A stretch of 39,608 nucleotides of DNA from a virus. The stretch covers positions 1 through 39,608 of the IMG/VR virus record IMGVR_UViG_3300013100_000018; one strand, given 5' to 3'. The position numbers and the translations under genes were made by a program. Shown here in pieces: positions 1,298-16,503 of the stretch (position 1 is the stretch's first letter; each line of letters starts with the position of its first letter). The notes under the pieces are model-generated. The model saw only the letters and a program-made list of their open reading frames with translations, did not search any database and had not been told where the DNA came from.

Positions 1298-1313
1298 GCC
1301 TAAACATTTAGGC
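1298..1313. repeat. Palindromic repeat, copy 1 (2-base centre)
   Basis: GCCTAAA-CA-TTTAGGC. It is the only copy with a 2-base centre instead of 3. It lies 25 bases before copy 2, and the two form the only closely paired copies upstream of the first rightward gene. Confidence 0.85.
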
Positions 1314-1338
1314 AAATTCGCTTGCAACCCACCAAATG

Positions 1339-1353
1339 CCTAAACGATTTAGG
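1339..1353. repeat. Palindromic repeat, copy 2
   Basis: CCTAAA-CGA-TTTAGG, extended to a perfect 19-base dyad (TG...CA) at 1337-1355. It lies about 20 bases before the start of the first rightward gene. Here the Shine-Dalgarno (AAAGGA) is separate from the repeat. Confidence 0.9.
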
Positions 1354-1375
1354 CACAAACGTAAAGGATCGAATG

Positions 1376-2158
1376 ATGAGCAAGCCGACCAAGACAGCCG
1401 CTCCGGTTACCGTGACCCACACGGAGCCGACCGTAGAGGCACCCACCCCGACAGAGGCAGCAGAGGCAGCGTTCAGCACGGAGGAGTACGCGCAGTTCGA
1501 GCGTGACCAGAACAACGCATGGGCGGAGCAGACTCGCCTAGTCGCTAACGCCGTGCACGGCGGCTCGAAGCTGGCCGACATTGCACGCCGACAGGCAGCA
1601 ACGTTTGACGCGCAGGGCATCGACTACGGTACGCACAAGAATCTGTCGAACAAACTCGGGCAGCAGAATAAAGCCGGTGAGGTGTGCCGTGCACTCGGCA
1701 TCCTGTCCCTGAACGCTGCTATCGACGCCGCACGCCCCGCCACCCGCGGCCAGTTGGACGCCAAAGCGTTTGACGCCGCTTTGGTGGAACTGGTCACGCT
1801 GGCAGACGCGGAAGGGTGGGACGCTGACAAGCGTGTCGAAGCTCTGTCAGAGGTAATCGCGGAGCTTGTCGAAGACAAGCGCGTCCAGCGTGAGGCCGCC
1901 AAAGCGGAGCGTGAGGCAGAGGAGGCGGCAGAGGCGGCAGAGGCCGCGGAGCGTGAGGCGGCGGCAGAGGCCGACGTGAACGGGGTGCCGATCCCCCGTA
2001 ACGCTGAAGGTGTCGCCGTGCTGCTGGCTCACGCTGAGGCGATCATGGCGGAACTGTTCGCCCGTGGCGACTCTGCCAACGTCGAATGGCTCACCGCAGT
2101 CGAAGCCGTGCACACGTTCGCTGGCAAGTACATCCCGGACACCATCGACACCATGTAG
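1376..2158 (+). CDS. Ala/Glu-rich coiled-coil protein, first gene of rightward run
   Basis: A 260-residue protein. After a Thr/Pro-rich N terminus it has a folded-looking middle and, at about residues 170-203, a long stretch of Ala, Glu and Arg typical of a charged coiled coil or single alpha helix, then a short C-terminal segment. Two adjacent ATGs (1373 and 1376) are possible; 1376 has the better distance from AAAGGA (1363-1368). No catalytic motif or family is recognised. As the first gene after the large control region and two repeat copies, it is likely among the first rightward genes expressed. It is followed by a strong hairpin, so it may be largely monocistronic. Confidence 0.75.
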   Translation: MSKPTKTAAPVTVTHTEPTVEAPTPTEAAEAAFSTEEYAQFERDQNNAWAEQTRLVANAVHGGSKLADIARRQAATFDAQGIDYGTHKNLSNKLGQQNKAGEVCRALGILSLNAAIDAARPATRGQLDAKAFDAALVELVTLADAEGWDADKRVEALSEVIAELVEDKRVQREAAKAEREAEEAAEAAEAAEREAAAEADVNGVPIPRNAEGVAVLLAHAEAIMAELFARGDSANVEWLTAVEAVHTFAGKYIPDTIDTM

Positions 2159-2178
2159 CACTCACCAGCTATCCCGCA

Positions 2179-2204
2179 GGGGGTAGGGCTTATGCCCTAC
2201 CCCC
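2179..2204 (+). terminator. Strong hairpin after first rightward gene
   Basis: GGGGGTAGGGC (2179-2189) pairs perfectly with GCCCTACCCCC (2194-2204) around a TTAT loop. A second palindrome (CCCCTATAGGGG) and a small GGGTG/CACCC hairpin follow directly. No T tract follows, so it may terminate weakly, protect the mRNA 3' end, or act with a host factor. Confidence 0.6.
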
Positions 2205-2235
2205 TATAGGGGTGTCAGCACCCGCTGAGAGAGTG

Positions 2236-2250
2236 CCTAAATCGTTTAGG
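2236..2250. repeat. Palindromic repeat, copy 3
   Basis: CCTAAA-TCG-TTTAGG flanked by G and C (17-base dyad). It lies 49 bases upstream of copy 4 in the gap between the first two rightward genes. Confidence 0.9.
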
Positions 2251-2284
2251 CATTCCCGCTCCACCCGTTCCACCTAAAAGCGTT

Positions 2285-2299
2285 CCTAAATCGTTTAGG
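2285..2299. repeat. Palindromic repeat, copy 4
   Basis: CCTAAA-TCG-TTTAGG, followed by a degenerate half-site (cctaaagcctacctaatagg, 2307-2326) before the next start codon. Confidence 0.9.
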
Positions 2300-2345
2300 A
2301 AAAAGCGCCTAAAGCCTACCTAATAGGCAGAAAAGAGTAAAAGCT

Positions 2346-2582
2346 ATGTCGAGCATCCAGCCCGGTTCGTGGATCGAGGTCGTTCCTGCCTATGGCAGGG
2401 ACTACAAGAACCAGAAAGAGGTCAAAGAGGCGTGGTCGTCTGGCCTCGACTTTCAAGAAACTGCCACCCGCTCATACATCAGTATCGGTGAGGCAAACCG
2501 AATGGGCCTCAAAACCATCGTTCGGTACTCGAAGCTGCAAAAGGTCGTGGACGTGTCGAAGGTGACCACGCCTAAGTCCTAG
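2346..2582 (+). CDS. Hypothetical protein (78 aa)
   Basis: A 78-residue protein starting MSSIQPGSWIEV with a basic C-terminal half. There is no signal peptide, membrane segment or known motif. The start at 2346 is the first ATG after repeat copy 4; the ribosome site is weak (AAAAGAG about 10 bases upstream). It stands alone between repeat-bearing gaps, so it probably has its own control signals. Function unknown. Confidence 0.65.
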   Translation: MSSIQPGSWIEVVPAYGRDYKNQKEVKEAWSSGLDFQETATRSYISIGEANRMGLKTIVRYSKLQKVVDVSKVTTPKS

Positions 2583-2617
2583 CCTGCCACGCCCAAAAAC
2601 TAGTTCGCTTGTCTCAT

Positions 2618-2642
2618 CCATACCTAACCCGAATAGGTGTGG
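2618..2642 (+). other. Hairpin in intergenic gap
   Basis: CCATACCTA and TAGGTGTGG pair over 9 bp (one G-T) around a 7-base loop. No T tract follows. The CCTA...TAGG core resembles a stretched version of the genome's palindromic repeat, so it may be a diverged copy or a simple RNA hairpin. Confidence 0.45.
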
Positions 2643-2672
2643 CTGGGATTGGCTGCCTAGCCTACCTAAATG

Positions 2673-2687
2673 CCTAAATCGTTTAGG
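2673..2687. repeat. Palindromic repeat, copy 5
   Basis: CCTAAA-TCG-TTTAGG, preceded by an extra CCTAAA half-site (2665-2670). It lies 46 bases before the next start codon. Confidence 0.9.
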
Positions 2688-2732
2688 AACTCAAATAAAC
2701 CAAAACATAACAGAAATGTAGGTTGAAATAGC

Positions 2733-3224
2733 ATGTCGTCACACACCAAACCCTTGTCTCCGAACCCGCTCACCCCTGAGGAACGTTCGCGCATTCTCTA
2801 CATCGTGAGGGAGCATGCACCGAAGGATGCGAAACTGTCGGTTTCGCGCCCTGCACGCCGTACCGTCACGCCGACCACGTATCGCGGAACGGGAAACCTC
2901 CACGGCTTGATCCGTAACACGTTCCCGTACCTCAGCCCTGCGATCTGGCGGGCGATCACCCAGCAGGTCACCCAGTACGCTGAGCAGGAAAATTCGGGGC
3001 GTACCCCGGATGTGTGGACGATCAAAATGCTGTGGCGTGACATGATGACGCCGCTGTACTTCCCGCTGCCCCGGCCTGAACCAACAGATGCCGAAATGGA
3101 AAACATCATGAACCGGCTGTACGCCCTGTACTTCCCGGCGAACGATTCCCCCAGCATGGCACCAGTCCGTGAGTCCACGTCAACGCAGGCTGCCTATGGC
3201 ATCATGCGCCCCGTGAACGCCTAA
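2733..3224 (+). CDS. Hypothetical protein (163 aa)
   Basis: A 163-residue protein starting MSSHTKPLSPNP, Pro-rich at the N terminus, with a basic segment at about residues 30-55 and an aromatic, helical middle (TFPYLSPAIWRAITQQV). No known motif. The start follows repeat copy 5 and a weak site (TAGGTTGAA). The stop lies in GCCTAA, the same Ala-stop boundary seen at several repeat copies. The Pro/Arg-rich N terminus could contact nucleic acid; this is a guess. Confidence 0.7.
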   Translation: MSSHTKPLSPNPLTPEERSRILYIVREHAPKDAKLSVSRPARRTVTPTTYRGTGNLHGLIRNTFPYLSPAIWRAITQQVTQYAEQENSGRTPDVWTIKMLWRDMMTPLYFPLPRPEPTDAEMENIMNRLYALYFPANDSPSMAPVRESTSTQAAYGIMRPVNA

Positions 3225-3240
3225 ACCGAAACCTAAACGC

Positions 3241-3255
3241 CTAAACCATTTAGGA
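3241..3255. repeat. Palindromic repeat, copy 6, with SD
   Basis: CCTAAA-CCA-TTTAGG. The right arm continues as TTTAGGAG, so the repeat supplies the Shine-Dalgarno of the gene at 3266. Two further CCTAAA half-sites (3221 and 3233) precede it, and the first contains the stop codon of the upstream gene. Confidence 0.9.
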
Positions 3256-3265
3256 GAAAACGAAA

Positions 3266-3544
3266 ATGGCTAAAGACGAAACCGAAAACGTCCCTGTTAT
3301 CTCGTCTGCGATTGTGTTGTACGGCATGCTGATCCGTGGGGAGTGGAGTGGGGGCCAGTACATCGACCTCAGCTTTCCCGGCGATTCTCACCCGTTCACG
3401 GTCATCAACGTGTGGGACTCGGAAACGGATACTGCCAGTATCAGGAAAAACCGCATTGCCCTGCGTTCTGCCATGCAGGAGTGGGGCCGAGACATAACCA
3501 AGGACGACCTCATGAACTACCTCATGAACACGAAAAGAGACTGA
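3266..3544 (+). CDS. Hypothetical protein (92 aa)
   Basis: A 92-residue soluble protein starting MAKDETENVPVI. A beta-rich first half (VISSAIVLYGMLIRG) is followed by a helical C terminus with charged residues. No motif recognised. The Shine-Dalgarno is the AGGAG at the right end of repeat copy 6. It is separated by one base from the next start (TGA then ATG), so the two genes are probably co-translated. Confidence 0.7.
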   Translation: MAKDETENVPVISSAIVLYGMLIRGEWSGGQYIDLSFPGDSHPFTVINVWDSETDTASIRKNRIALRSAMQEWGRDITKDDLMNYLMNTKRD

Positions 3545-3545
3545 A

Positions 3546-3743
3546 ATGCCCCTAAACTACACGCCGACGAACACCATCATCGAAATTCGTGGGATTCCTC
3601 TGATTGTCACGGATCGCGTACTCATCACGTCGGGCAAGAACTTCGGCAAGTCGCTGTACACCTTGCGGGACGGTGCGGGAAACACCTATTCCGCGCTGGG
3701 GAAGACTCTCACCAAGAACTCGAAGCTCAGCAAGAACGCCTAA
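3546..3743 (+). CDS. Small basic protein (65 aa)
   Basis: A 65-residue basic protein (MPLNYTPTNTII...) with many Lys near the C terminus and a predicted beta pattern. It starts directly after the stop of the preceding gene with no clear ribosome site, so translational coupling is likely. The stop codon lies inside repeat copy 7 (GCC-TAA), giving a C-terminal Ala. No family recognised; the size and charge would allow nucleic-acid binding. Confidence 0.65.
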   Translation: MPLNYTPTNTIIEIRGIPLIVTDRVLITSGKNFGKSLYTLRDGAGNTYSALGKTLTKNSKLSKNA

Positions 3744-3753
3744 ATGGTTTAGG
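3739..3753. repeat. Palindromic repeat, copy 7, contains stop codon
   Basis: CCTAAA-TGG-TTTAGG. The TAA of the left arm is the stop codon of the gene ending at 3743. The next start is 70 bases downstream, so here the repeat does not serve as ribosome site. Confidence 0.9.
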
Positions 3754-3821
3754 CAAACCAAAACTAAATAATAAAGCCAAACCCAAAACCAAAACCCTAC
3801 TACACAGGAAAGAGAACCATC

Positions 3822-4271
3822 ATGGCTCAGCTTGAATCCATGCGCCTCATAGCACTCACGAAAGCAAAATACCGTAACAAACTGGGCAAGATCGGGAACA
3901 ACACCTACGCCCGGTATGACCCTGAGAACCGCGTTGCGTCGGTGTTCCTGCATGGAAACCTGATTGCTGTCCTCGCCTACGGCGACGAGAAGGATTCACA
4001 GGCACCGTTCCAGACCGTGTTTGTTACGGATGCTGACTGGGGTACGCCCACCACCCGTGACCGGATCAACCAGCTTCTCTGGGACAACGAAATCCGTTTC
4101 CGTTGCCACCAGAAAAACCACACCCAGTACCTCACGCCCCTTCCGTTCGACTTCGAAAAGCCGCTGGAAAACTTCTGGCAGGTGGACAGCATCGGCTACT
4201 CTTCCACCCGCTTCGCCAACTTCGTCAAGCAAACCCCCGACTCCGATTGGAAGTTCACCAGCATTGTCTAA
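3822..4271 (+). CDS. Hypothetical protein (149 aa)
   Basis: A 149-residue soluble protein starting MAQLESMRLIAL. It has mixed alpha/beta character with an aromatic-rich second half (FDFEKPLENFWQVDSIGY). An AGGAAAGAG site lies about 10 bases before the ATG. The end overlaps a possible TTG start of the next gene. No family or catalytic pattern recognised. Confidence 0.7.
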   Translation: MAQLESMRLIALTKAKYRNKLGKIGNNTYARYDPENRVASVFLHGNLIAVLAYGDEKDSQAPFQTVFVTDADWGTPTTRDRINQLLWDNEIRFRCHQKNHTQYLTPLPFDFEKPLENFWQVDSIGYSSTRFANFVKQTPDSDWKFTSIV

Positions 4272-4518
4272 GCACGCTCTCTCCACCCTGCCCCAGCCGC
4301 CGCGCCATGCCTACTACACACCGAGTACGGAAGGCCCGTATCGTCCGCTGGTGACAGTTGAGGCGATCCCTCACAACGCCGTCGTCCGTTCGAACAACAA
4401 AATCCACGGCAAGCTGTACTACCGTGTTCGCACCAGTGTGCGGGTGTTCGTCGGCCTGACCATCCTCTACGGAGGCTTCATCATCGGTTCGCTCTTCGAG
4501 TCGCTGTTCACCCGCTGA
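4264..4518 (+). CDS. Small single-pass membrane protein
   Basis: An open frame coupled to the previous gene, with one convincing membrane segment near the C terminus (VFVGLTILYGGFIIGSLF) followed by a short tail ending in Arg. There is no in-frame ATG. TTG at 4264, overlapping the upstream gene by 8 bases, gives 84 residues; GTG at 4351 would give a shorter 55-residue form. The frame is open further upstream, but that part lies inside the preceding gene and reads as its shadow. Topology, not sequence, is the evidence. Function unknown. Confidence 0.5.
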   Translation: MSKHALSTLPQPPRHAYYTPSTEGPYRPLVTVEAIPHNAVVRSNNKIHGKLYYRVRTSVRVFVGLTILYGGFIIGSLFESLFTR

Positions 4519-4539
4519 AACCCAAACCTACACCAAACA

Positions 4540-4554
4540 CCTAAACCATTTAGG
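4540..4554. repeat. Palindromic repeat, copy 8, with SD
   Basis: CCTAAA-CCA-TTTAGG followed by AG, so TTTAGGAG forms the ribosome site for the ATG at 4564 (8 bases downstream). Confidence 0.9.
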
Positions 4555-4563
4555 AGCTTAACA

Positions 4564-4773
4564 ATGGCAGAAACGCCGACGCCAAACCCGTACGACCTTA
4601 CCCAAGCGATCATCGACTTCGAGAGTGGGACACAGAACGAGGAGGAAACCCTCGAACTGTTCCAAAACCTCGTGGACACCGGCTTGGCATGGCAGCTTCA
4701 GGGCAGCTATGGTCGAACGGCGAACGCCCTGATCGAACAGGGACTCATCATCCGCCCTGACGATCCTCAGTGA
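4564..4773 (+). CDS. Conserved small actinophage protein (69 aa)
   Basis: A 69-residue acidic protein with the pattern AIIDFESG...EETLELFQNLVDTGLAWQL (about residues 15-45), followed by GSYGRTANALIEQGLI. From memory this matches a small family common in actinobacterial phages (I believe DUF7417), of unknown function, predicted to be a compact helical protein. The Shine-Dalgarno is supplied by repeat copy 8. Its 3' end overlaps the convergent leftward gene by 26 bases. Family assignment is by recall, not by search. Confidence 0.8.
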   Translation: MAETPTPNPYDLTQAIIDFESGTQNEEETLELFQNLVDTGLAWQLQGSYGRTANALIEQGLIIRPDDPQ

Positions 4774-5086
4774 TCCAGCCCTGAAACGTGGGCTTAAACC
4801 CTGTTCCATCGTCTTCGATGCTGTAACCGAATTCGACGGCAACATCTTTCAAGTTGTCTAAATAAAACATGAAAAGCATTCGAGCGAAACTGTCGGGGTC
4901 AGCCATAACAGCCGTAGTGGGGTACTTGTCCAGTTCCCCACTACGGCGGGCTGCCTGATAACACGTCATACACAGTCCACGGCTGTGAGCATCACGCCCA
5001 CACTGCTCCACACACTTCGCTTTGCCCATGTACTTCATGAACTCACGAGTTGCTTCTCGCTGCTCAGGGGTCATCTTCTCAGTCAT
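4748..5086 (-). CDS. Leftward zinc-finger protein (112 aa)
   Basis: The only leftward gene in the first 31 kb after the left edge. The 112-residue protein has Cys25-x3-Cys29-x9-Cys39-x2-Cys42 (CVEQCGRDAHSRGLCMTCY) followed by a basic stretch, a typical four-Cys zinc knuckle seen in phage HNH-associated and DNA-binding proteins; no HNH catalytic residues are visible. The C-terminal half is helical and acidic. A good promoter (TTTACA-17-TAGAGT) lies just upstream. Its divergent position beside a palindrome-rich control region makes a regulatory role attractive, but that is inference. Confidence 0.75.
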   Translation of the reverse strand: MTEKMTPEQREATREFMKYMGKAKCVEQCGRDAHSRGLCMTCYQAARRSGELDKYPTTAVMADPDSFARMLFMFYLDNLKDVAVEFGYSIEDDGTGFKPTFQGWITEDRQGG

Positions 5087-5088
5087 GG

Positions 5089-5121
5089 CTCTACTCTAGT
5101 GCATTCGCAGAATTGTGTAAA
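5089..5121 (-). promoter_or_regulatory. Promoter of the leftward zinc-finger gene
   Basis: On the leftward strand TTTACA and TAGAGT are separated by 17 bases and end close to the ATG at 5086, giving a very short leader. The -35 hexamer lies inside the left copy of the 16-base inverted repeat, so a factor binding that repeat would compete with RNA polymerase. Confidence 0.55.
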
Positions 5122-5237
5122 GACTTTTCAAGCGACCCCCACCCCCTTCCCTTATAGTCTTTAAATGTACAAAAAAATAATACATCATTGAATATCACGT
5201 AAGGGGCTAGGCACTGCTCAAAAAGTCTTTACACAAA
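5113..5237. repeat. Perfect 16-base inverted repeat flanking a 93-base AT-rich core
   Basis: TTGTGTAAAGACTTTT (5113-5128) and its exact reverse complement (5222-5237) flank an AT-rich stretch. A third partial copy (TAGTCTTTA, 5156-5164) lies between them. The left copy overlaps the leftward promoter. Two well separated identical sites are typical of operator pairs that allow looping or cooperative binding. Confidence 0.8.
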
Positions 5238-5337
5238 TCAACGAACTTACCCCGAAAACACCCAAAACCGACCTGACCCACCCGCAAAACCACCCAGACC
5301 GTTCACAGAAAGCTCCCAGATAACCCCTGTTTTTGTA

Positions 5338-5374
5338 CATTTTGTATGGAATCCTCATACATTCATACAAAATG
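5338..5374. repeat. Perfect 11-base inverted repeat, AT-rich
   Basis: CATTTTGTATG (5338-5348) and CATACAAAATG (5364-5374) are exact reverse complements with a 15-base gap. TTGTAC (5333-5338) and CATACA (5356-5361) with 17 bases between them could be a weak rightward promoter inside it. Confidence 0.7.
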
Positions 5375-5466
5375 CCTAACACAACTTCCGCGGAATCACG
5401 CCTGTCTGCTTTTTGTGTACGTATGGATTATTAATAATTTGTACGCGACACGCCGAGAGAATCCCT

Positions 5467-5481
5467 AACGTATGATACGTT
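5467..5481. promoter_or_regulatory. Operator-like palindrome over a possible -10
   Basis: AACGTAT-G-ATACGTT is a perfect dyad with 7-base arms. Its centre reads TATGAT, a good -10 hexamer for rightward transcription, so a protein bound here would block that promoter. It sits 13 bases before repeat copy 9. Confidence 0.5.
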
Positions 5482-5493
5482 GAGGACACGAAA

Positions 5494-5508
5494 CCTAAAC
5501 GATTTAGG
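5494..5508. repeat. Palindromic repeat, copy 9
   Basis: CCTAAA-CGA-TTTAGG between the palindromic control region and the gene at 5536. The actual ribosome site of that gene is a separate GGAG (5523-5526). Confidence 0.9.
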
Positions 5509-5535
5509 AAAACCGACCGAAACGGAGACAAGAAA

Positions 5536-5832
5536 ATGGGCAAGTACGACACCGACGAGGTACGCAACCGTGCCACCCAGCTAGGTCGCAACTACGCCGC
5601 CTACGAGGCATACACCGGCAGGGAGGAACAGGACGCCCCGCTCAGTGGCGAGTGGGCTGACGGACTCGACTACCGGGACGTGTTCACGAGCATCACCGGC
5701 ACCAAGTACGCCGACCTCAACCTCGAAGAGGGAGAATTCGAAGAGGCCGACTTCCTGCTCGACCTGTGGGAGGCTGGCTACCTCGACCTGTGGGAGGCTG
5801 AAATCAAGAAAGAACAGGAGAACGAAAAGTGA
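5536..5832 (+). CDS. Acidic hypothetical protein (98 aa)
   Basis: A 98-residue, strongly acidic protein starting MGKYDTDEVRNR. The C-terminal half carries two near-identical segments (LLDLWEAGY / LDLWEAEIKK, about residues 74-92), an internal duplication also visible in the DNA. GGAG lies 9 bases upstream of the ATG. It overlaps the next gene by 4 bases. It is the first rightward gene after the 5.1-5.5 kb control region. Acidic DNA-mimic-like composition is noted, but no function can be assigned. Confidence 0.75.
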   Translation: MGKYDTDEVRNRATQLGRNYAAYEAYTGREEQDAPLSGEWADGLDYRDVFTSITGTKYADLNLEEGEFEEADFLLDLWEAGYLDLWEAEIKKEQENEK

Positions 5833-6038
5833 ACACGGTACAGCACAAAACCAAGACCATCGAGAAGCACACCATCACAATGGAGGGGCCGATCACAGCG
5901 CGCGATCTGGGAGACTTCCAGATGCAGGTCAACAACATCTTCGAGAAGGAGAAGGGTCGTCCTGTCCGTTACGACGACGACTACTACGTGACCGGCAACG
6001 AAGACGGCCTCACCGCCACGTTCGAAACGGAGAGCTAA
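5829..6038 (+). CDS. Hypothetical protein (69 aa), GTG start
   Basis: A 69-residue protein with a GTG start overlapping the preceding stop (GTGA). A beta-like N-terminal half (TIEKHTITMEGPITARDL) is followed by an acidic, Tyr/Asp-rich middle (RYDDDYYVTGNEDG). The ribosome site (AGGAG, 5816-5820) is inside the upstream gene. Coupled translation is likely. No family recognised. Confidence 0.7.
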   Translation: MNTVQHKTKTIEKHTITMEGPITARDLGDFQMQVNNIFEKEKGRPVRYDDDYYVTGNEDGLTATFETES

Positions 6039-6040
6039 AC

Positions 6041-6370
6041 ATGAAGATCACCCTCACCATCGACACCGACCACGCCGACGACGCGACGTTCGATAGTGTG
6101 AAGCGTAAGCTCATCCAGATCGGAAGCGAACTGGCTTACGCACGGCTGTACGACACCTCGAAAGCCAAGCTGCCCGAGACTCTGCACAGGCTCGTCGGCG
6201 GTCCCGAGGGCACCATCCCCGGCAAGCACTTCGAAATCGGGGCGCAGTTCACCATCGAAGACGAAACCGACGAGTGCGACTGGGAAGATAGCGGCACGGA
6301 CGCACCCAACGGCGCTACCATCTACACCTGTCAGCACGGCCACGCCCTGCTCGGCGGAACCGACCAGTAA
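6041..6370 (+). CDS. Hypothetical protein (109 aa)
   Basis: A 109-residue acidic protein starting MKITLTIDTDHA, separated by two bases from the preceding stop. A beta-alpha start is followed by a Gly/Pro-rich middle and two Cys (ECDW, YTCQHGH) that could form a small metal site, though only two are present. GGAG (6029-6032) precedes the ATG. Third gene of the 5536-6370 operon-like set. Function unknown. Confidence 0.7.
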   Translation: MKITLTIDTDHADDATFDSVKRKLIQIGSELAYARLYDTSKAKLPETLHRLVGGPEGTIPGKHFEIGAQFTIEDETDECDWEDSGTDAPNGATIYTCQHGHALLGGTDQ

Positions 6371-6397
6371 AACGTAACAAAAGGAGAACTAACCATC

Positions 6398-6709
6398 ATG
6401 AAGACCACCATCACTGCCCTGACCTCATTCGCCGCTGGCATCGTCCTCGTCTGTGGGATCGCCGCGTGCGCACCGGACGCTCAGCCGACCGCTCCGACCC
6501 CCAACCCGGCCAGTGTCACCGACCCCGCCGAAACGCCCTACACGCCCCCTGTGCTCCACTGTGAGTCGTGGCAGGTACCGGGCTGGCTGAACGGGCACGG
6601 CGACCCGACCTCGTGCGTGAACAACGAGGCCGTACCCGGCTCCCACAAGGGTGAGCCGCCCGCAACGCCCGCCCCTGCCCCCAGCACCCCGGCAACGGAG
6701 TGCAAGTAA
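6398..6709 (+). CDS. Predicted lipoprotein (103 aa)
   Basis: A 103-residue protein with a signal peptide (residues 1-23) and lipobox I-A-A-C (Cys24), followed by a long Pro/Thr/Ala-rich linker and two Cys (about 54 and 73) that could form a disulfide outside the cell. AAGGAG lies 11 bases before the ATG. Phage lipoproteins of actinobacterial hosts are often thought to alter the surface of the infected cell, for example to exclude other phages; here that role is inference. The Pro-rich tail suggests an extended, wall-spanning shape. Confidence 0.8.
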   Translation: MKTTITALTSFAAGIVLVCGIAACAPDAQPTAPTPNPASVTDPAETPYTPPVLHCESWQVPGWLNGHGDPTSCVNNEAVPGSHKGEPPATPAPAPSTPATECK

Positions 6710-6711
6710 CG

Positions 6712-6726
6712 CCTAAATGATTTAGG
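6712..6726. repeat. Palindromic repeat, copy 10, with strong SD
   Basis: CCTAAA-TGA-TTTAGG continuing as AGGAGG, one of the best ribosome sites in the window, 7 bases before the GTG at 6735. Confidence 0.9.
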
Positions 6727-6734
6727 AGGTACCC

Positions 6735-6896
6735 GTGACGGTGCTGAGCAAGCGAAGCACACAGCAGTTGGAGGCTATTCTTAAAGCCGCCGACCAGCAG
6801 GAGTTCTTAATCTCCATCAACCAACCCAACCTGAGACTCAGTGAGCAGATCGCTGACAGTCTCGCCGCGTTCCTCCAAGAGAACGGAAACCACTAA
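6735..6896 (+). CDS. Small helical protein (53 aa), GTG start
   Basis: A 53-residue protein starting MTVLSKRSTQQLEAI and ending in an amphipathic helix (EQIADSLAAFLQEN). The AGGAGG of repeat copy 10 is 7 bases before the GTG, and the stop overlaps the next ATG (TAATG), which together support a real gene. The helix-rich C terminus resembles that of the following gene in style, but no family is recognised. Confidence 0.65.
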   Translation: MTVLSKRSTQQLEAILKAADQQEFLISINQPNLRLSEQIADSLAAFLQENGNH

Positions 6897-7240
6897 TGCC
6901 AAAACTTAACGCTGTCCCCGGCTTCTACAACAAAGACGGCAGCATCAACCGCATCGAACACACCAACGAGGCGTACCGCCGAAACCTCAAAATCCGTCCC
7001 GACAGCAACTGGGCCGCGCCCGACAAGGACGAACTGATCGTCGGCTTCAACTACTCCCATGAGGAAAGCGGAGAAGCCCCGGTGTATATCGGCGCGATCA
7101 CGTACGAGAACCCCGAGGAGTCCTACATGGCAGCGGAGGGTGTACATCTGGCGCTCACCATCGAACAGGCCACCGCCGTGCGAGACATGCTCAACCTCAT
7201 CATCGACAAGTGCGGCGCGCAGCCCGACGCTGACGCCTAA
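6896..7240 (+). CDS. Hypothetical protein (114 aa), possible member of small-protein family
   Basis: A 114-residue protein: charged N terminus, beta-rich middle (APVYIGAITYEN) and a C-terminal helix (LTIEQATAVRDMLNLIID). The layout of beta segments followed by an acid-preceded hydrophobic helix resembles the tandem family at 9739-10990. It starts in TAATG and its GCC-TAA end lies inside repeat copy 11. No known domain. Confidence 0.7.
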   Translation: MPKLNAVPGFYNKDGSINRIEHTNEAYRRNLKIRPDSNWAAPDKDELIVGFNYSHEESGEAPVYIGAITYENPEESYMAAEGVHLALTIEQATAVRDMLNLIIDKCGAQPDADA

Positions 7241-7250
7241 ACGGTTTAGG
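7236..7250. repeat. Palindromic repeat, copy 11, contains stop codon
   Basis: CCTAAA-CGG-TTTAGG. The left arm carries the TAA of the upstream gene; the next ATG follows 9 bases after the right arm, so TTTAGG is the best ribosome site available for it. Confidence 0.9.
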
Positions 7251-7258
7251 CACGCACC

Positions 7259-7627
7259 ATGAACGAAGAAGACGAGAGTCACCTGTTTGGGTTTGTTAAG
7301 CCCTACTACCAAGTGGTCGTTAATTACCGTTCCACGGAACATTCCGAAAGAGGGCACCTAGACGTACAACTCCGCTACGAGAAGGACAATGGTAGAACCT
7401 ACACGACGGCTCTCCGCGCTCATGAATTCCCAACAACGGGCAAGTTCGGCTTCGACCCCTCTGGGTCGATACATTTTCCGAAGGATTCGTGGGTATCCGA
7501 AGCAGGAGTACCCAAGGCTGCGGTGATGGAGTTCTTCATCTGTCTGTTCGAGTTGGACTACAGCGACAAGGTAGACGAGGACGGGTGCTACGAGTACAAG
7601 GGAGAAAAGCATTATGTCGGTACCTAA
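7259..7627 (+). CDS. Hypothetical protein (122 aa), possible member of small-protein family
   Basis: A 122-residue acidic protein. Beta-rich N-terminal two thirds (QVVVNYRSTEHS, HLDVQLRYE), then a helix (KAAVMEFFICLFELD) and a charged tail. The helix occupies the same place as the helix of the 9739-10990 family. Ends inside the start region of the phosphoesterase gene (14-base overlap), so the two are co-transcribed. Function unknown. Confidence 0.7.
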   Translation: MNEEDESHLFGFVKPYYQVVVNYRSTEHSERGHLDVQLRYEKDNGRTYTTALRAHEFPTTGKFGFDPSGSIHFPKDSWVSEAGVPKAAVMEFFICLFELDYSDKVDEDGCYEYKGEKHYVGT

Positions 7628-8285
7628 ACAAGTCTGGTACACCAGTGACCTGCACTTCTTACACGAAAAAGTGGCGTTGATCCGAGGGTTCAAAGACTCT
7701 GCGGAACACGACATAGCAATCTTCGAGAACTGGCAGGGGCAGGTTACCCCCAATGACACGGTATACGTGCTGGGCGACATTGCCAGTGATGAGCGAACAC
7801 TGAGACATGCTCTCGGAATGCTCGATGCCTTACCCGGAGACAAAATCTTAATAGCCGGGAACCATGACGGGTTCCACCCCAAGAACCGCAAGTTCATGGA
7901 GTGGCAGGAGATTGCGCTGTCATTCCCCCGCATTAAGGCTGTAGCGCCGTTTGCGCGGCGTAAACTGCTGGGTAAGGACGTGATGCTCAGTCACTTCCCG
8001 TACTACCGTGAGCGCCCCGGTGTGGAGCCGCGTGACATGCAGTACCGCCTCCGCAATGAGGGGAACTGGCTGCTGCACGGACACACGCACGGCACAGAGG
8101 TAGTCACTGTCCAGCAATACGGGGAGAAGCTAAGTGTCGAGGCGGTAAACGCTCAGGACGCTTTACGTAAACAGCACGCAAGCATGCCGAGTACCACGAT
8201 CACCCGAGAGTTCCACGTTGGGCTGGACGCACACGACTTCAAACTCGTTAACCAAAACGACATTCTTAAAGTGATTGGAGGTTGA
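7614..8285 (+). CDS. Calcineurin-like metallophosphoesterase
   Basis: A 223-residue protein with the full metal-site motif set of the superfamily: SDLHF (Asp12, His14), GDI (about 54-56), GNHDG (about 82-86), SHFPY (about 126-130) and HGHTHG (about 155-160). These ligate two metal ions and hydrolyse phosphoesters; the substrate (nucleotide, nucleic acid or protein phosphate) cannot be read from sequence. The length is normal for a single-domain phage enzyme. It overlaps the upstream gene by 14 bases. A second, larger metallophosphoesterase with an HTH domain lies at 34600. Confidence 0.9.
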   Translation: MSVPKQVWYTSDLHFLHEKVALIRGFKDSAEHDIAIFENWQGQVTPNDTVYVLGDIASDERTLRHALGMLDALPGDKILIAGNHDGFHPKNRKFMEWQEIALSFPRIKAVAPFARRKLLGKDVMLSHFPYYRERPGVEPRDMQYRLRNEGNWLLHGHTHGTEVVTVQQYGEKLSVEAVNAQDALRKQHASMPSTTITREFHVGLDAHDFKLVNQNDILKVIGG

Positions 8286-8357
8286 CCGGGAGTACACATT
8301 CCGCTAAGTTAGCAACAGCAACACAGCAACAATTTACTTAATCTATCGGGAGATTAA

Positions 8358-8836: not shown

Positions 8837-8859
8837 CCGGACTGGTACAGGTAACTCCG

Positions 8860-8895
8860 TCGAGGGGGTAGAGTTTAATAACTCTGCCCCCTCGA
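8860..8895 (+). terminator. Very strong 16-bp hairpin
   Basis: TCGAGGGGGTAGAGTT pairs with AACTCTGCCCCCTCGA (one G-T pair) around a TAAT loop. It directly follows the gene ending at 8836. No T tract follows (GAAACG), so it may be a factor-assisted terminator, an mRNA end-protecting hairpin or an RNase III site. Confidence 0.65.
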
Positions 8896-8918
8896 AACGT
8901 ACTCCCCGCGAGTTGCCG

Positions 8919-9197
8919 ATGGGCTGGTGTTTCCCAGACGACGTGTACCATAACAATTGCAGAACGGAGTACGTAGACCAAAATGGCAAAATCAGAAGAT
9001 GTAGTTGCCCGAATCACCGGCAACATGACGCCGGTAGCAGTAGACCTGAGCAGCCTGCCGGAGAGCAAGCGCCGGTCGCGCATCCTGCCGGAGAACCCGC
9101 TGAGGCCGGGACTGTGGTGGCACTGCAACCCCCGAAACGAAAACGCCGACCACGAGTGCAAGGGTCGCCACAAACAGATCAACCCACTGCCGAGTAG
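8919..9197 (+). CDS. Cys/His-rich (zinc-binding-like) protein, overlaps next gene
   Basis: A 92-residue frame whose first 35 residues hold a plausible zinc site (W-C-F...H-x2-C...C-x-C-x2-H; MGWCFPDDVYHNNC, RRCSCPNH), a spacing seen in small phage zinc proteins. The rest is Pro/Gln/Arg-rich. The ATG at 8919 is chosen because it follows the 8860-8895 hairpin; no good ribosome site is visible. From 8983 on, the DNA also encodes the next protein in another frame, so the low-complexity tail may be a by-product of that gene. Confidence 0.5.
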   Translation: MGWCFPDDVYHNNCRTEYVDQNGKIRRCSCPNHRQHDAGSSRPEQPAGEQAPVAHPAGEPAEAGTVVALQPPKRKRRPRVQGSPQTDQPTAE

Positions 9198-9237
9198 CCG
9201 GTGCAAGTGCACCTGCCACGACGGTAACGATGCCTAA
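8983..9237 (+). CDS. Cys/His-rich protein (84 aa)
   Basis: An 84-residue protein with GC-rich third codon positions and a C-terminal Cys/His set (WWHC...H-E-C-K-G...C-K-C-T-C-H) likely to hold zinc. It ends DA-stop inside repeat copy 12, as several neighbours do, which supports the frame. No clear ribosome site precedes the ATG, so translation may depend on the overlapping frame at 8919-9197. Function unknown; such domains often bind nucleic acid. Confidence 0.65.
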   Translation: MAKSEDVVARITGNMTPVAVDLSSLPESKRRSRILPENPLRPGLWWHCNPRNENADHECKGRHKQINPLPSSRCKCTCHDGNDA

Positions 9238-9247: not shown

Positions 9248-9254
9248 AGAATAG

Positions 9255-9755
9255 ATGGACTCGCTAGTTCACTGGTACACCCGGTACCGCACCGAGAAAA
9301 CGAAGATCAGGGCACGACAGCGCCTCGAATTGGAGCGTGAGCTTCGCCCGCTGGCTGTCGAGCTTGGCCGCGCCATTGTCGATGAGCGTAACAAGGGCAA
9401 GCGCATCGAGGACATTGGCTACATGATTGGGCTGAAGAACAAGACGTTCATCTACTCCATGATCGAAGAGTTCAAGCACTCGGGTGAACCCACCCCCACC
9501 ACGCCGCCCGAACAGGGTGCCGTTGAGCCTGCGGAGATTACGTTCGAGCCGTACGAGTTGTACGACTTCGAGTACCACGGCAACACCGCCGTGCTGTCGA
9601 TCATCGAAGACGGCACGCCCACCGAGTACGTGCTGGGGCTGAGCAACACCGGAGAAGTGGTGACGACGCCGGAAGCGTGGCTGACCGCCTCCAAGGACCA
9701 GCGGAAGCTCTACGCCAAGATCATCAAGGAGATTGAGGATGGAGCTACCCCGTAA
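9255..9755 (+). CDS. HTH-like protein (166 aa)
   Basis: A 166-residue protein. Residues 1-45 are a basic helix rich in Arg and Lys; about 48-75 (GKRIEDIGYMIGLKNKTFIYSMIEEF) read as a helix-turn-helix of the kind that chooses DNA sites; a Pro/Thr linker (about 78-90) joins an acidic beta-rich C-terminal domain. It could be a transcriptional regulator, and it is one of the few candidates for a protein that binds the palindromic repeats, but that link is speculation. It begins right after repeat copy 12 and overlaps the next gene. Confidence 0.7.
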   Translation: MDSLVHWYTRYRTEKTKIRARQRLELERELRPLAVELGRAIVDERNKGKRIEDIGYMIGLKNKTFIYSMIEEFKHSGEPTPTTPPEQGAVEPAEITFEPYELYDFEYHGNTAVLSIIEDGTPTEYVLGLSNTGEVVTTPEAWLTASKDQRKLYAKIIKEIEDGATP

Positions 9756-10665: not shown

Positions 10666-10687
10666 ACAAAAGAAAGGAGAACGCGCT

Positions 10688-10990
10688 ATGGCAAAGACAG
10701 ACTTCACCTACGATATTCACTGTCGGGCATCTTTCCTTGATGCCATTCGACTCAAAGACAGCAGCGGGGAATGGACACCGGGCTACTACAGAGATGTTAA
10801 GAATGCTTCCGAGGAGGAAGCAGAAAGAAAACGCCTTCAGGAAGCCTCCCTCAACGTCTACACCGTACGCAACGCAGGTGAGGACTACGAGGATACCAGC
10901 GGGTTCACTGTACTAGGCCGCGAGGACGTTGATGAACTCATCGTCGCTCTCATGTACTGGCGTACGCAAAACCCAGACCCCAAAGCCTAA
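10688..10990 (+). CDS. Tandem small-protein family, member 5 (100 aa)
   Basis: The largest member of the row: an aromatic/charged N terminus, a Glu-rich helix (ASEEEAERKRLQEASL, about 41-56), a strand (NVYTVRN) and the shared C terminus DVDELIVALMYWRTQN. AAAGGAG (10673-10679) is 8 bases before the ATG. The stop (GCC-TAA) is inside repeat copy 13, which closes the row. Confidence 0.75.
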   Translation: MAKTDFTYDIHCRASFLDAIRLKDSSGEWTPGYYRDVKNASEEEAERKRLQEASLNVYTVRNAGEDYEDTSGFTVLGREDVDELIVALMYWRTQNPDPKA

Positions 10991-11000
10991 ACGATTTAGG
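10986..11000. repeat. Palindromic repeat, copy 13, stop codon plus SD-like arm
   Basis: CCTAAA-CGA-TTTAGG then AAGG. It contains the TAA of the upstream gene, and TTTAGGAAGG can serve as ribosome site for the ATG at 11014. Confidence 0.9.
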
Positions 11001-11013
11001 AAGGATTAACAGA

Positions 11014-11578: not shown

Positions 11579-11582
11579 CATC

Positions 11583-11990: not shown

Positions 11991-12277
11991 TGCGGAAGAC
12001 GCCCGAGCAGGAAGAGGCCGAGGAAGTCCGTGAACTGGTCGTCGGACTCACCGCCATGCTCGCAGAGGCAATGGCGAAAGACGACGAAGCCCGTGTTAAA
12101 GAAATCTTCCACCAACTGAATTTGCAGTATCGGGGAGACCCCAGTAGCATACTCGTGTTGCTGAAAGCCTCCCTTGTCTTGGGTGCGACGTTCACGCTCC
12201 GCACTTTCGAAGACGAACTCAACAAAACCACCAACCAGAACAACGGCGAGAACGCCGACAACGACAAGGAGAACTAA
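11990..12277 (+). CDS. Hypothetical helical protein (95 aa)
   Basis: A 95-residue helical protein, very Glu/Ala-rich at the N terminus (QEEAEEVRELVVGLTAMLAE) with a hydrophobic helix near residue 55-70 (SILVLLKASLVLGATF) and an Asn/Asp-rich tail. The hydrophobic helix is short for a membrane anchor. It is two bases from the AAA+ ATPase gene and coupled by TGATG to the gene before. Function unknown. Confidence 0.7.
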   Translation: MRKTPEQEEAEEVRELVVGLTAMLAEAMAKDDEARVKEIFHQLNLQYRGDPSSILVLLKASLVLGATFTLRTFEDELNKTTNQNNGENADNDKEN

Positions 12278-12279
12278 CA

Positions 12280-13380: not shown

Positions 13381-13395
13381 CCTAAACAGTTTAGG
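13381..13395. repeat. Palindromic repeat, copy 14
   Basis: CCTAAA-CAG-TTTAGG directly after the TAG of the ATPase gene. Followed by a strong hairpin rather than a start codon, so at this copy the repeat cannot act as a ribosome site. Confidence 0.9.
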
Positions 13396-13403
13396 CCCGG
13401 AAG

Positions 13404-13434
13404 AAGGGGAGGGTACTCATGGTACCCTCCCCTT
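13404..13434 (+). terminator. 13-bp perfect hairpin after ATPase gene
   Basis: AAGGGGAGGGTAC pairs perfectly with GTACCCTCCCCTT around a TCATG loop. The sequence after it (AACACTTGTT) is only mildly T-rich. It probably ends or attenuates transcription from the ATPase gene. Confidence 0.7.
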
Positions 13435-13456
13435 AACACTTGTTAGGAACAAGCGA

Positions 13457-13735
13457 ATGGAAATTAAAGCCAGACCGAACAGCGAATTCGGTGACATTTA
13501 CACCGTCCAAGGCACGTACGACACAACAACATTGCAAATCAGCCGCAACTACACCTATAAAGCCGTCAGTAAAATCTTCCCAACCGAAAAGAATGACGCC
13601 TATTTTGTAGAATTGATCGACGGCGGTGTGGTCGTCACAGCAGCTTTTAGCGAAGAGGCGTTGCTTGAATTCTTCCATGCGTTCCTGCTCGTGAAGAAAG
13701 ACTACGAAGACTACGCTGCGCAGGCAGCACAATAG
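13457..13735 (+). CDS. Hypothetical protein (92 aa), possible member of small-protein family
   Basis: A 92-residue protein: beta-rich N-terminal two thirds (DIYTVQGTYDTTTLQISRNYTY) and a C-terminal helix (SEEALLEFFHAFLLVKKDYED) placed like that of the 9739-10990 family. Codon use is more AT-rich than in the flanking ATPase and VWA-like genes, suggesting a separate origin. TTAGGA lies 8 bases before the ATG. Function unknown. Confidence 0.7.
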   Translation: MEIKARPNSEFGDIYTVQGTYDTTTLQISRNYTYKAVSKIFPTEKNDAYFVELIDGGVVVTAAFSEEALLEFFHAFLLVKKDYEDYAAQAAQ

Positions 13736-13751
13736 AAAGAGGAGGTTTAAC

Positions 13752-14636
13752 ATGGCCCGAATCAAAGAGGTAGGGACACGCAAGAAGCTGCACGTCGAGT
13801 TCGACTCCGTGCCAGAGGTCTTCCGTGTTATTAAGAAGATGAAGTGGACCCCGCAGCGCGACGAGTCCAGTAACTCCAATCACGGCGGCAGCTTCCACAC
13901 GTTCACAGACCTCGCTGAGGCGCTGGACGTGTTCGAGAACCACCCTGAGCGCATCCGCGAGTTCAGCCAGAACGACGACCGGCTCACCAACATCGAATCC
14001 CCCGGCAAGGACGTGGAGTTCGGCGTGACCGGTGACTTCATCGACATTGGCCGTGTCCTCGAAGGCATCCCCGAGGTCTTCGGCAACGCCGTCATGGGCA
14101 ACCCGAAGAGCGTGTTCTGCACGATCAACATTCTCGACAGCTTCGTGTCCTACACGTCCCCCGAGTACCAGATCGCCAAGCAGAAGCGCATCCTGCGGCT
14201 GGTTGACTGGCTGGAATCGCAGGGTGTCCGCTGCCAGATCGTTTCATCCGGCGACAGCGAGGTCATCTATTCGAGCGTGGTTATTAAGGAATTCGGTGAC
14301 CCGTTCGACCTCAACCACCTTGCCGTGTCGATGCACCCTGACTGGCTGCGCCGGGTCATGTTCCTCATCATGGAACAGAGCAAGACGTGGCAGTGGGGGT
14401 ACGGCAACAGCGAGGCGTACGACAACCGCATGAAGCAGTACAAGCCCCAGCCCGAGGACGGCTTGTACGTCTACGTCGGCGGGTACATTCCCTACGCTGG
14501 TTACAAGAACAAGACGGTCGGTATCAAAACCCTTAACGAAGAGTTCGACCGTATCGAGGCCAGCATTCAGCAGATCATCGAGGACGGCCTGACGTTTAAC
14601 GACGAGCCGCTGACGATCAGTGGGGACGAGTGGTAA
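13752..14636 (+). CDS. VWA-like protein (CobT-like partner of the AAA+ ATPase)
   Basis: A 294-residue protein. The pattern of a conserved N-terminal block (DIGRVLEGIPEVFG, about 97-110), a strand (VFCTINILDSF), a helix and the strand LVDWLESQGVRCQIVSS (about 149-165) matches, from memory, the VWA-like fold of a phage family that travels with MoxR-type ATPases (I believe DUF7192). A complete MIDAS motif is not evident. GAGGAGG precedes the ATG. It lies two genes after the ATPase, the usual order of such pairs. Role: probably a substrate adaptor for the ATPase; the substrate is unknown. Confidence 0.65.
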   Translation: MARIKEVGTRKKLHVEFDSVPEVFRVIKKMKWTPQRDESSNSNHGGSFHTFTDLAEALDVFENHPERIREFSQNDDRLTNIESPGKDVEFGVTGDFIDIGRVLEGIPEVFGNAVMGNPKSVFCTINILDSFVSYTSPEYQIAKQKRILRLVDWLESQGVRCQIVSSGDSEVIYSSVVIKEFGDPFDLNHLAVSMHPDWLRRVMFLIMEQSKTWQWGYGNSEAYDNRMKQYKPQPEDGLYVYVGGYIPYAGYKNKTVGIKTLNEEFDRIEASIQQIIEDGLTFNDEPLTISGDEW

Positions 14637-14812
14637 TGGACGAGGAACAGAAGCGCCGCGTATTCGAGGATGGGTACGCGGCGGGGCTGGACGTAGCCCA
14701 AGCCCTCATTGCCAGCGCCCGAGCGCAGGACAACCCCATGGAACTCTACGAGTCCCTTCTGCAAATGCACATCGACTTCGCCAAAGAAATGCGGGAGAAT
14801 CGTAACAAATGA
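14636..14812 (+). CDS. Small helical protein (58 aa)
   Basis: A 58-residue acidic helical protein (MDEEQKRRVFEDGYAAG...). It begins in a TAATG overlap with the VWA-like gene and overlaps the next start by 4 bases, which supports its reality despite the size. The pattern DGYAAGLDVAQ resembles small phage proteins with a DGYxxG start. Function unknown. Confidence 0.7.
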   Translation: MDEEQKRRVFEDGYAAGLDVAQALIASARAQDNPMELYESLLQMHIDFAKEMRENRNK

Positions 14813-15057
14813 AAAAGTTCTTCTCCCCCTCAACGTTCGACTTCTACTTCGGGGCGTTCTGCGGTGCCTACGTCATGCTGGGCACTGTGACGTGGCTCCC
14901 TGAGGGCGTGCACTGGTGGACCCCGCTGGCTTGGGCCGGATGCTGGCTCCTCTACGGAGCTACCCGCATTGCGGCCCGCATCGTTATTAGAAAACTCATC
15001 GTGCGCCGACAGGTGCGCAGGATCGAAAAGGAAATTGAAAGGGCATATCATGACTGA
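14809..15057 (+). CDS. Two-segment membrane protein (82 aa)
   Basis: An 82-residue protein with two hydrophobic segments (about residues 11-29, FYFGAFCGAYVMLGTVTWL; and 37-60, including PLAWAGCWLLYGATRIAARI), then a long basic cytoplasmic-type tail (RKLIVRRQVRRIEKEIER). It overlaps both neighbours by a few bases. No lysis or exclusion family is recognised; the basic tail suggests the C terminus stays inside the cell. Confidence 0.75.
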   Translation: MKKFFSPSTFDFYFGAFCGAYVMLGTVTWLPEGVHWWTPLAWAGCWLLYGATRIAARIVIRKLIVRRQVRRIEKEIERAYHD

Positions 15058-16093
15058 CGACGACTTCGAGGACATCGAAACCTACAACGCCGAGGCCAAC
15101 AACGCCCGTGCAGCACGGATCGCAGCGTACCTCGCAGAAATGGCGGGCGCGGACGCCCCCGAGGGGTTCTACTACGACGAGAACGGGAAGCTTCAGCCCA
15201 TCGAGGTTGGCCCCGACTACCGCTACGTTCTCGGTCTCGACCCCGGAGGCACGACCGGCGTAGCCATGCTCCGTTACACCGACGAGACCGCGCCGGAACT
15301 GATCTACCTCCACCAGATCGAGGGCGGCGAGGAGGGGTACTACCAGTATTTCCACGGTTCCGTCATCGGCAGCAACCTTGACGTGGCGAGCGAGAAGTTC
15401 GTCCCGTTCGAGGGCGTCTACGGTGCTGACCTGACCCCCATCTACATCGAGGGTCAGCAGTTCGCACAGTGGCACGACCAGTTGGACGCGCTGCACTACC
15501 AAGAGCCGAGCATGAAGTCCCTTGTGCCGGATGACTGGCTGCGTGAGCAGAACCTGTGGACTGAGGGCAAGCGGCACCAGATGGACGCGCTGATCCACGC
15601 TCTCGTGTGGCTTCGTAACAACGACCACAAGCCCACCCTGAAGGCCATGTCGGGCGAGACCGACGAGAAGCTGGCCGAAGAGGGCGAGGCCGAGTCCAAG
15701 CAGCTTCCCCCGCAGGGAGGCGGCGAGGGCGCAGGCGAGGGTGACGAGGCTGAGGGCGGCGAAAGCCAGACGTTCGAGGAGGCTATGGAGGCTATCAGTC
15801 AGGCGTTCAAGCAAATGGGCGAGGCTGCTCAGGCCGCTCAGGAGGCCATGCAGGAGGCTGCTCAGGGCGCGGGCGAGGAGCAGGGTCAGGCTGGTGACGG
15901 ACAACCTCAGGGACACGGCGACGGCACCCCCGCTGGCGGCGTACGTGGCGAAATCCAGCAGCCAGAGGGCGAGGGGCACCACCGCAGCGAGGTCGAAGTG
16001 ACCGGCACGCGCAAGCGCCGGGAGCGCAACGGCGTGTTCGCTGGGTTCGACACCGACGACGAGGGAATCGAAACGGAGTTGTACAGTGACTGA
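15050..16093 (+). CDS. RuvC-like nuclease with long acidic tail
   Basis: A 347-residue protein; start ATG 15050, 8 bases inside the preceding gene, with AAAGG nearby. Residues about 58-190 look like an RNase H/RuvC fold: VLGLDPGGTTGVA (Asp64), SEKFV (about 119-123, second acid) and RHQMDALIHALVWL (third acid before a helix). Phage RuvC-like enzymes resolve branched DNA. From about 205 on, the protein is a Gly/Glu/Gln/Ala-rich low-complexity stretch with an Ala-Gln repeat helix, ending in a basic patch and an acidic C terminus. That extension is unusual and could be a flexible, DNA-mimicking or partner-binding tail. Confidence 0.72.
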   Translation: MTDDDFEDIETYNAEANNARAARIAAYLAEMAGADAPEGFYYDENGKLQPIEVGPDYRYVLGLDPGGTTGVAMLRYTDETAPELIYLHQIEGGEEGYYQYFHGSVIGSNLDVASEKFVPFEGVYGADLTPIYIEGQQFAQWHDQLDALHYQEPSMKSLVPDDWLREQNLWTEGKRHQMDALIHALVWLRNNDHKPTLKAMSGETDEKLAEEGEAESKQLPPQGGGEGAGEGDEAEGGESQTFEEAMEAISQAFKQMGEAAQAAQEAMQEAAQGAGEEQGQAGDGQPQGHGDGTPAGGVRGEIQQPEGEGHHRSEVEVTGTRKRRERNGVFAGFDTDDEGIETELYSD

Positions 16094-16292
16094 GTACCGG
16101 TTCTATGTAGCATTTCCTAATAGACCCTATTTCGTCGGGGCTGTGGACACGTTGTTAAGCTGTGGGCACGGTCACTGGTTTGGCATCAGGGTAGATGAGT
16201 GTGCTATCGAAATCAACCGAGCCGGATTGGATTGTCTACGTGCGGCTGGGTATGACGAACCTGCCACAGGCAACGGACTAAAGGTGAACTAG
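16086..16292 (+). CDS. Hypothetical protein (68 aa), GTG start
   Basis: A 68-residue protein starting MTEYRFYVAFPN; beta-rich with a short Cys/His stretch (LLSCGHGHWFGI). GTG overlaps the RuvC-like gene by 8 bases. Codon use is more AT-rich than in the gene before. Two Cys and two His are too few for a confident metal site. Function unknown. Confidence 0.65.
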   Translation: MTEYRFYVAFPNRPYFVGAVDTLLSCGHGHWFGIRVDECAIEINRAGLDCLRAAGYDEPATGNGLKVN

Positions 16293-16430
16293 TTGGAACC
16301 CGAGTACCGCCTGTGTCCTCACGGATACCACCACCCGTCGTGGCCGCATAGCTGCGACGGGTGTTGGTGTGAGGGTGAAAGAGACCGCCGTGAATACGGC
16401 TGGGATCACGACACCACGCCGGTAGAATAA
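16293..16430 (+). CDS. Cys/His-rich mini-protein (45 aa), TTG start
   Basis: A 45-residue open frame starting at TTG immediately after the TAG of the gene before, with AAAGGTG about 6 bases upstream. It contains CPHGYHHP and HSCDGCWC, enough Cys and His for one zinc site. The dense metal-ligand pattern and coupling support a real gene, but the short length leaves doubt. Several similar mini-proteins occur in this window (4748, 8919, 8983, 19284). Confidence 0.55.
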   Translation: MEPEYRLCPHGYHHPSWPHSCDGCWCEGERDRREYGWDHDTTPVE

Positions 16431-16488
16431 GGACGCGCCATATAGCAAAATTTGGTTGAAAAATTTTTCCGAATCCTGTTTGAAAATG

Positions 16489-16503
16489 CCTAAATTGTTT
16501 AGG
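16489..16503. repeat. Palindromic repeat, copy 15 (last), with SD
   Basis: CCTAAA-TTG-TTTAGG followed by AG; TTTAGGAG lies about 13 bases before the ATG at 16519. It sits after an AT-rich stretch (16441-16486). No further copy was found in the remaining 23 kb. Confidence 0.9.

Follow-up and report, generated by a model that had tools for sequence, protein, structure and literature searches.

Dispersed gene-boundary palindromes in the early region of a phage record: a probable array of operators recognised by a dimeric DNA-binding protein

Arrays of palindromes placed at gene boundaries have been reported in two groups of phages, the Cluster O mycobacteriophages in 2015 and the Cluster EG Microbacterium phages in 2020, in neither case with a known binder or function. 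The Cluster O repeats (Corndog, Firecracker) are 17 bp long, have the form TGTTCGG-N3-CCGAACA and occur in more than 30 copies; dimeric binders were proposed by the authors, who left the function open (PMC4351075). The Cluster EG element (Hyperion, Squash) has 18 bp, GATCAACC-N2-GGTTGATC, and is present in 8–10 copies, mostly 14–22 bp upstream of starts (PMC7302621). A third family, the palindrome CCTAAA-N3-TTTAGG, was examined in the virus record IMGVR_UViG_3300013100_000018, the 39,608 bases of which are called the window below. A literature search for the exact arms returned no phage paper on this motif. The first-pass annotation of the window had described the family as unfamiliar. Its sequence is indeed new, but its kind is not, the closest parallels, Cluster O and Cluster EG, having been missed.

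The window contains 14 exact copies of CCTAAA-N3-TTTAGG. The count expected from dinucleotide shuffles, a comparison suggested in the first-pass annotation, is 0.00. A fifteenth copy, at 1299, has a two-base centre, CCTAAA-CA-TTTAGG. No further copy with one or two mismatches is present in the window, and the palindrome read backwards, used as a control pattern, has no match in it. All 15 copies lie within the first 42% of the record, and none of the 12 arm positions changes from one copy to another. The number of copies, the invariance of the arms and the single two-base centre had been correctly annotated, as had 13 of the positions, the remaining two being off by one (1298 instead of 1299 and 3241 instead of 3240).

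The three central bases had been said to vary freely, which proved wrong. The centre is pyrimidine-any-purine (Y-N-R) in 14 of the 14 N3 copies, with a probability of about 4e-9 by chance, and the middle base alone is free, all four letters being found there. The centres come in reverse-complement pairs (CGA and TCG, three times each; CCA, twice, and TGG, once; CAA and TTG), so that the site, CCTAAAY-N-RTTTAGG, is without a preferred strand. Given the full variation of the middle base and 12 arm positions without a change in 15 copies, the arms appear to be held by selection rather than by recent copying. Additional half-sites are biased to one strand, with seven occurrences of CCTAAA and one of TTTAGG, and CCTAAA half-sites are found 8–12 bp upstream of three full sites, at 2273, 2665 and 3232.

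According to the gene calls, which were computed and not curated, all 15 copies are intergenic or overlap no more than the final 5 nt of a gene. Of the positions between 1290 and 16520, about 10.6% qualify, which gives a chance of about 3e-15 for all 15 copies if they are independent. The placement at gene boundaries initially proposed is therefore borne out for every copy, and the gene interiors hold none. Of the 17 gaps with a length of 15 nt or more between 1373 and 16661, 12 contain a site, whereas the six later gaps of this length, as far as 32 kb, contain none (Fisher p 0.005 for early versus later). Neighbouring sites are spaced more widely towards the right (Spearman 0.84, p 2e-4), their density being highest where the early block begins and lower away from the putative early promoter region. 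The block is presumed to be early from its gene content and direction. Eleven of the fifteen sites fall in 1373–8285, where nearly all genes are without a homologue in the relatives compared. The next start codon is at most 20 nt away for 8 of the 15 sites, and 27–95 nt away for the other seven.

Many sites in the short intergenic gaps of an early block, with one pair near the presumed early promoter region, would also suit an immunity system of the stoperator type, in which a prophage repressor binds the sites and stops early transcription in the lysogen. The stoperators of Cluster A mycobacteriophages are distributed in this way; however, they are asymmetric 13-bp sequences, oriented with respect to transcription and bound by a monomeric repressor (PMC9283540), whereas the sites of the window are palindromes with strand-symmetric centres. 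Among the proteins searched, from a record that is possibly a fragment, none was recognised as a repressor or integrase. Of the parallel groups, Cluster EG is listed as lytic, and no lysogens were obtained with Cluster O. Immunity of this type is considered unlikely. The placement also bears on binding that would serve the organisation, segregation or replication of DNA (ParB-, nucleoid- or origin-type) instead of gene control. It was argued for Cluster O that most sites are not near promoters and must have a function different from initiation (PMC4351075). In the window, the sites are outside gene interiors, at the heads of units and in the early block only, whereas an organiser needs no gene boundaries, which makes such a function very improbable here.

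Cluster O and the window have in common inverted invariant arms, a variable 3-bp centre, the absence of strand orientation, and intergenic copies concentrated in one non-structural block. They differ in sequence (TGTTCGG-N3-CCGAACA versus CCTAAAYNRTTTAGG), in copy number (34 in Corndog), in the centre, which is mostly AAA/TTT in Cluster O, and in placement, about a third of the Cluster O copies being intragenic and none in the window. Cluster EG resembles the window by its approximately 8–13 symmetric copies, which occupy short gaps in the early block and are mostly close to starts, by the sites flanking the first early gene (gp104 in Hyperion), a feature of most EG genomes scanned, and by a pyrimidine-purine step at the centre of all copies in Hyperion and Fizzles. 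In other EG phages, however, a few copies violate this rule; the EG centre has 2 bp, degenerate copies are common, and the sequence switches between phages. The palindrome of the window is neither GATCAACC-N2-GGTTGATC nor one of the switched forms. The start-associated sequences of Cluster K mycobacteriophages (SAS/ESAS, PMC3203893) are likewise repeated at boundaries, and part of the window sites are fused with a Shine-Dalgarno sequence. SAS are asymmetric and tied to starts, whereas the window sites are symmetric, and for 7 of the 15 the distance to a start exceeds 25 nt. The first-pass annotation was right that stoperators and SAS differ in sequence from the sites of the window, which are symmetric and match neither. 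With Clusters O and EG, the window shares many copies with invariant arms around a small centre and the enrichment in the short gaps of a non-structural block.

The copies are probably operators of a dimeric DNA-binding protein that acts in the early region, where it would tune or silence early transcription. The dyad symmetry, the weakness of the hairpin and the invariance of the arms speak for a predicted site on duplex DNA, read by a dimeric protein, more than for an RNA stem. Each copy would be a 15-bp operator, CCTAAAY-N-RTTTAGG, on double-stranded DNA, bound by a homodimer. Each subunit would read one CCTAAAY half-site, the two half-sites being 8–9 bp apart on the same helix face. The sites would mark the heads of early transcription or translation units, and their likely role would be the tuning or shut-down of early-region transcription, initiation being blocked near 1299/1339 and elongation at later sites. 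The silencing role, suggested by the position and density of the sites, is speculative, as is the identity of the binder. The latter would probably be encoded by the phage and differ from a classic immunity repressor. The first early gene (1373–2158) supplies the lead candidate, proposed from its position, and would then be under the control of its own product.

Several observations weigh against this operator model. The CCTAAA bias of the additional half-sites is unexplained by a pure DNA model. A scan for consensus promoters gave nothing above background. The 1373–2158 protein matches no family, no relative of it was found, and neither BLASTP, local alignment compared with shuffles nor HHalign detected homology with EG gp104. 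Control of transcription was judged unlikely for the Cluster O sites by their authors (PMC4351075). Moreover, the palindrome is joined to translation signals: the left arm provides the TAA stop codon of the upstream gene at 3739, 7236, 9233 and 10986, and the right arm runs into a Shine-Dalgarno AGGA(G) at six sites (3240, 4540, 6712, 9233, 10986 and 16489).

These junctions, the strand bias of the half-sites and the proximity of 8 sites to a start codon are what a small mRNA hairpin at gene junctions would account for. In one variant, the hairpin would mask the Shine-Dalgarno AGG until a ribosome terminating at the TAA of the left arm melts the stem, resulting in translational coupling; in another, it would be bound by an RNA-binding protein or a nuclease. 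Folded as RNA, however, the palindrome gives a weak hairpin of −3.7 to −6.0 kcal/mol, below what is expected of a stable stem, and at several sites this hairpin is not the predicted regional fold. The arms, being invariant in all 15 copies, offer no compensatory or G-U changes by which a stem could be judged, and for seven sites the next start is 27–95 nt away. A loop is not expected to follow Y-N-R or to be strand-symmetric, which disfavours an RNA element. A scan of the window with Rfam returned two tRNA matches only and no known family for the palindrome. An RNA element is rather unlikely on balance, though a hairpin for translational coupling may act at those junctions where the arms contain a stop and a Shine-Dalgarno sequence. 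A dimeric-protein site and an RNA stem had been put forward as equals in the first-pass annotation; the dimer-type site at boundaries is upheld, and the parity of the RNA stem is lost to the weak hairpin and the strand-symmetric centres.

Conservation was examined in relatives, of which only distant ones were found. In the nearest phages, the AAA ATPase is 59–65% identical and the primase 57–62%, with an overall range of 57–65% amino acid identity in key proteins, and the gene order is common over much of the replication block. None of these relatives, too distant for a fair test of the conservation named in the first-pass annotation, has the palindrome family. Genomes G001–G005 contain no copy with at most one mismatch; when two mismatches were allowed, none was found in G007, and only two isolated non-palindromic matches in G006. 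No other dispersed palindrome family was found in G001, G002, G003, G006 and G007, the last having one local cluster of four palindrome copies at 54.4 kb, and a like search for palindromes in Molivia was negative. These negative results are credible, because the same scan recovers the Cluster O family in Firecracker (25–26 copies). A non-palindromic start-associated repeat, TTAAGGATTA, precedes the ATG of several early genes in G007 (L028/L029). Another candidate in the relatives, CGGCACGG, was rejected as it looked like repeats within coding DNA.

Viral contigs were searched in a collection that may omit records very near the window; a two-copy pattern gave no match, and a start-linked pattern gave 28 single-copy matches and no arrays. 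In bacterial genomes, close pairs were found at four loci, two of which are tandem repeats. Two contigs of metagenome-assembled genomes (MAGs; L060 and L062) carry tandem 21-bp arrays containing the identical palindrome. In a Planctomycetota MAG (L061:4477–4535), two copies of the window 15-mer lie directly upstream of an XRE-type helix-turn-helix (HTH) gene, adjoined by SIR2-like and kinase-like genes (gene names assigned by eye), an arrangement that resembles an autoregulatory operator. This pair could suggest that a host transcription factor, borrowed by the phage, binds the palindromes. However, the four bacterial genomes with paired copies hold just 2–7 copies, in tandem arrays in two of them, and the phage relatives are without the sites, so that a host factor is hardly to be expected.

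The EG genomes were scanned for their palindrome. It differs between phages, all copies and both arms changing together: GATCAACC is found in Hyperion, Squash, OneinaGillian and others, GATCTACC in 13 copies in Fizzles, and GATTTCCC in Phinky (the switch is observed at loci L069, L075, L076 and L077). Concerted switching is what would be expected from co-evolution with a trans-acting binder. In the product of the first early gene, residues 65–68 are V-S-[ST]-T in the 12 of 12 phages with a TCAACC core, though identity drops to 34%; they are V-T-A-T in Fizzles and Y-S-Q-A in Phinky. Since several other conserved columns change as well, these residues are a lead and not a proof.

Regarding the binder in the window (Table 1), the AlphaFold model of the 1373–2158 protein has a pLDDT of 58, too poor for a structure search. 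The HTH protein encoded at 9255–9755 had been named in the first-pass annotation as a possible binder. This is unlikely, as relatives devoid of the sites share its recognition helix (NK/NR-T/N-F-I/L-Y). The other HTH protein named there, encoded at 26979–27350, is kept as a candidate. If the record is incomplete, the true binder may be absent from it.

Table 1. Coordinates in the window of the palindrome copies, the candidate binder genes and the presumed early promoter region.
Feature	Position	Strand	Remarks
Palindrome copy, 2-bp centre CA (CCTAAA-CA-TTTAGG)	1299..1312		Upstream of first early gene
Palindrome copy, centre CGA	1339..1353		19 nt 5' of ATG 1373
Palindrome copy, centre TCG	2236..2250		Gap 3' of first early gene
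Palindrome copy, centre TCG	2285..2299		Additional half-site CCTAAA at 2273, 12 bp upstream
Palindrome copy, centre TCG	2673..2687		Additional half-site at 2665, 8 bp upstream
Palindrome copy, centre CCA	3240..3254		Half-sites at 3220 (stop codon of upstream gene) and 3232; right arm runs into Shine-Dalgarno AGGAG
Palindrome copy, centre TGG	3739..3753		TAA stop of gene 3546–3743 inside left arm
Palindrome copy, centre CCA	4540..4554		Right arm fused with Shine-Dalgarno AGGAG of gene 4564
Palindrome copy, centre CGA	5494..5508		3' of AT-rich region 5100–5490
Palindrome copy, centre TGA	6712..6726		Right arm fused with Shine-Dalgarno AGGAGG of gene 6735
Palindrome copy, centre CGG	7236..7250		TAA stop of gene 6896–7240 inside left arm
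Palindrome copy, centre CAA	9233..9247		Left arm, stop of gene 8983–9237; right arm, Shine-Dalgarno of gene 9255
Palindrome copy, centre CGA	10986..11000		Left arm, stop of gene 10688–10990; Shine-Dalgarno at right edge
Palindrome copy, centre CAG	13381..13395		Immediately 3' of stop of AAA ATPase gene
Last palindrome copy, centre TTG	16489..16503		Right arm fused with AGGAG
First early gene, candidate binder by position only	1373..2158	+	261-aa orphan, helical, two sites on each side
Cysteine-rich protein, alternative candidate binder	4748..5086	-	Leftward inside array; phrog_20467, HNH-like
HTH protein	9255..9755	+	Predicted HTH, site upstream
Putative HTH protein, candidate binder	26979..27350	+	Between primase and polymerase genes; helix diverged among relatives
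Intergenic region	600..1298		Between leftward genes and rightward early block; presumed early promoter region

Other features of the window were recorded. The AT-rich segment 5100–5500, which adjoins the leftward gene 4748–5086, contains two inverted repeats, a perfect one of 13 bp (5163/5330) and another of 11 bp (5338/5364), and looks like a two-way control region. GC-rich inverted repeats, read from the sequence, occur in early gaps at 1123–1177, 2178–2206, 8862–8897 and 13404–13432 and are possible terminators or processing signals. The pair TTGTTAAG/CTTAACAA has 19 occurrences in the whole window versus about 1.4 expected, mostly intragenic and often encoding Val-Lys. A DndB/DGQHR-domain protein encoded on the minus strand at 32455–33843 has no homologue in the relatives compared.

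A third family of gene-boundary palindromes, with a distinct sequence, a tight rule for the centre and gene interiors free of copies, speaks for a dimer site on duplex DNA. The switch observed in EG phages, which are cultured on a laboratory host, makes the question testable: the binder should be the protein in which the residues that read DNA change together with the palindrome. It is tentatively proposed, as an idea that may well not hold, that unrelated actinophage groups independently built the same layout, in which a palindrome-flanked first early gene encodes a predicted DNA-binding protein marking the head of each early unit, and palindrome and protein switch specificity together. If so, each phage lineage would carry a private code.

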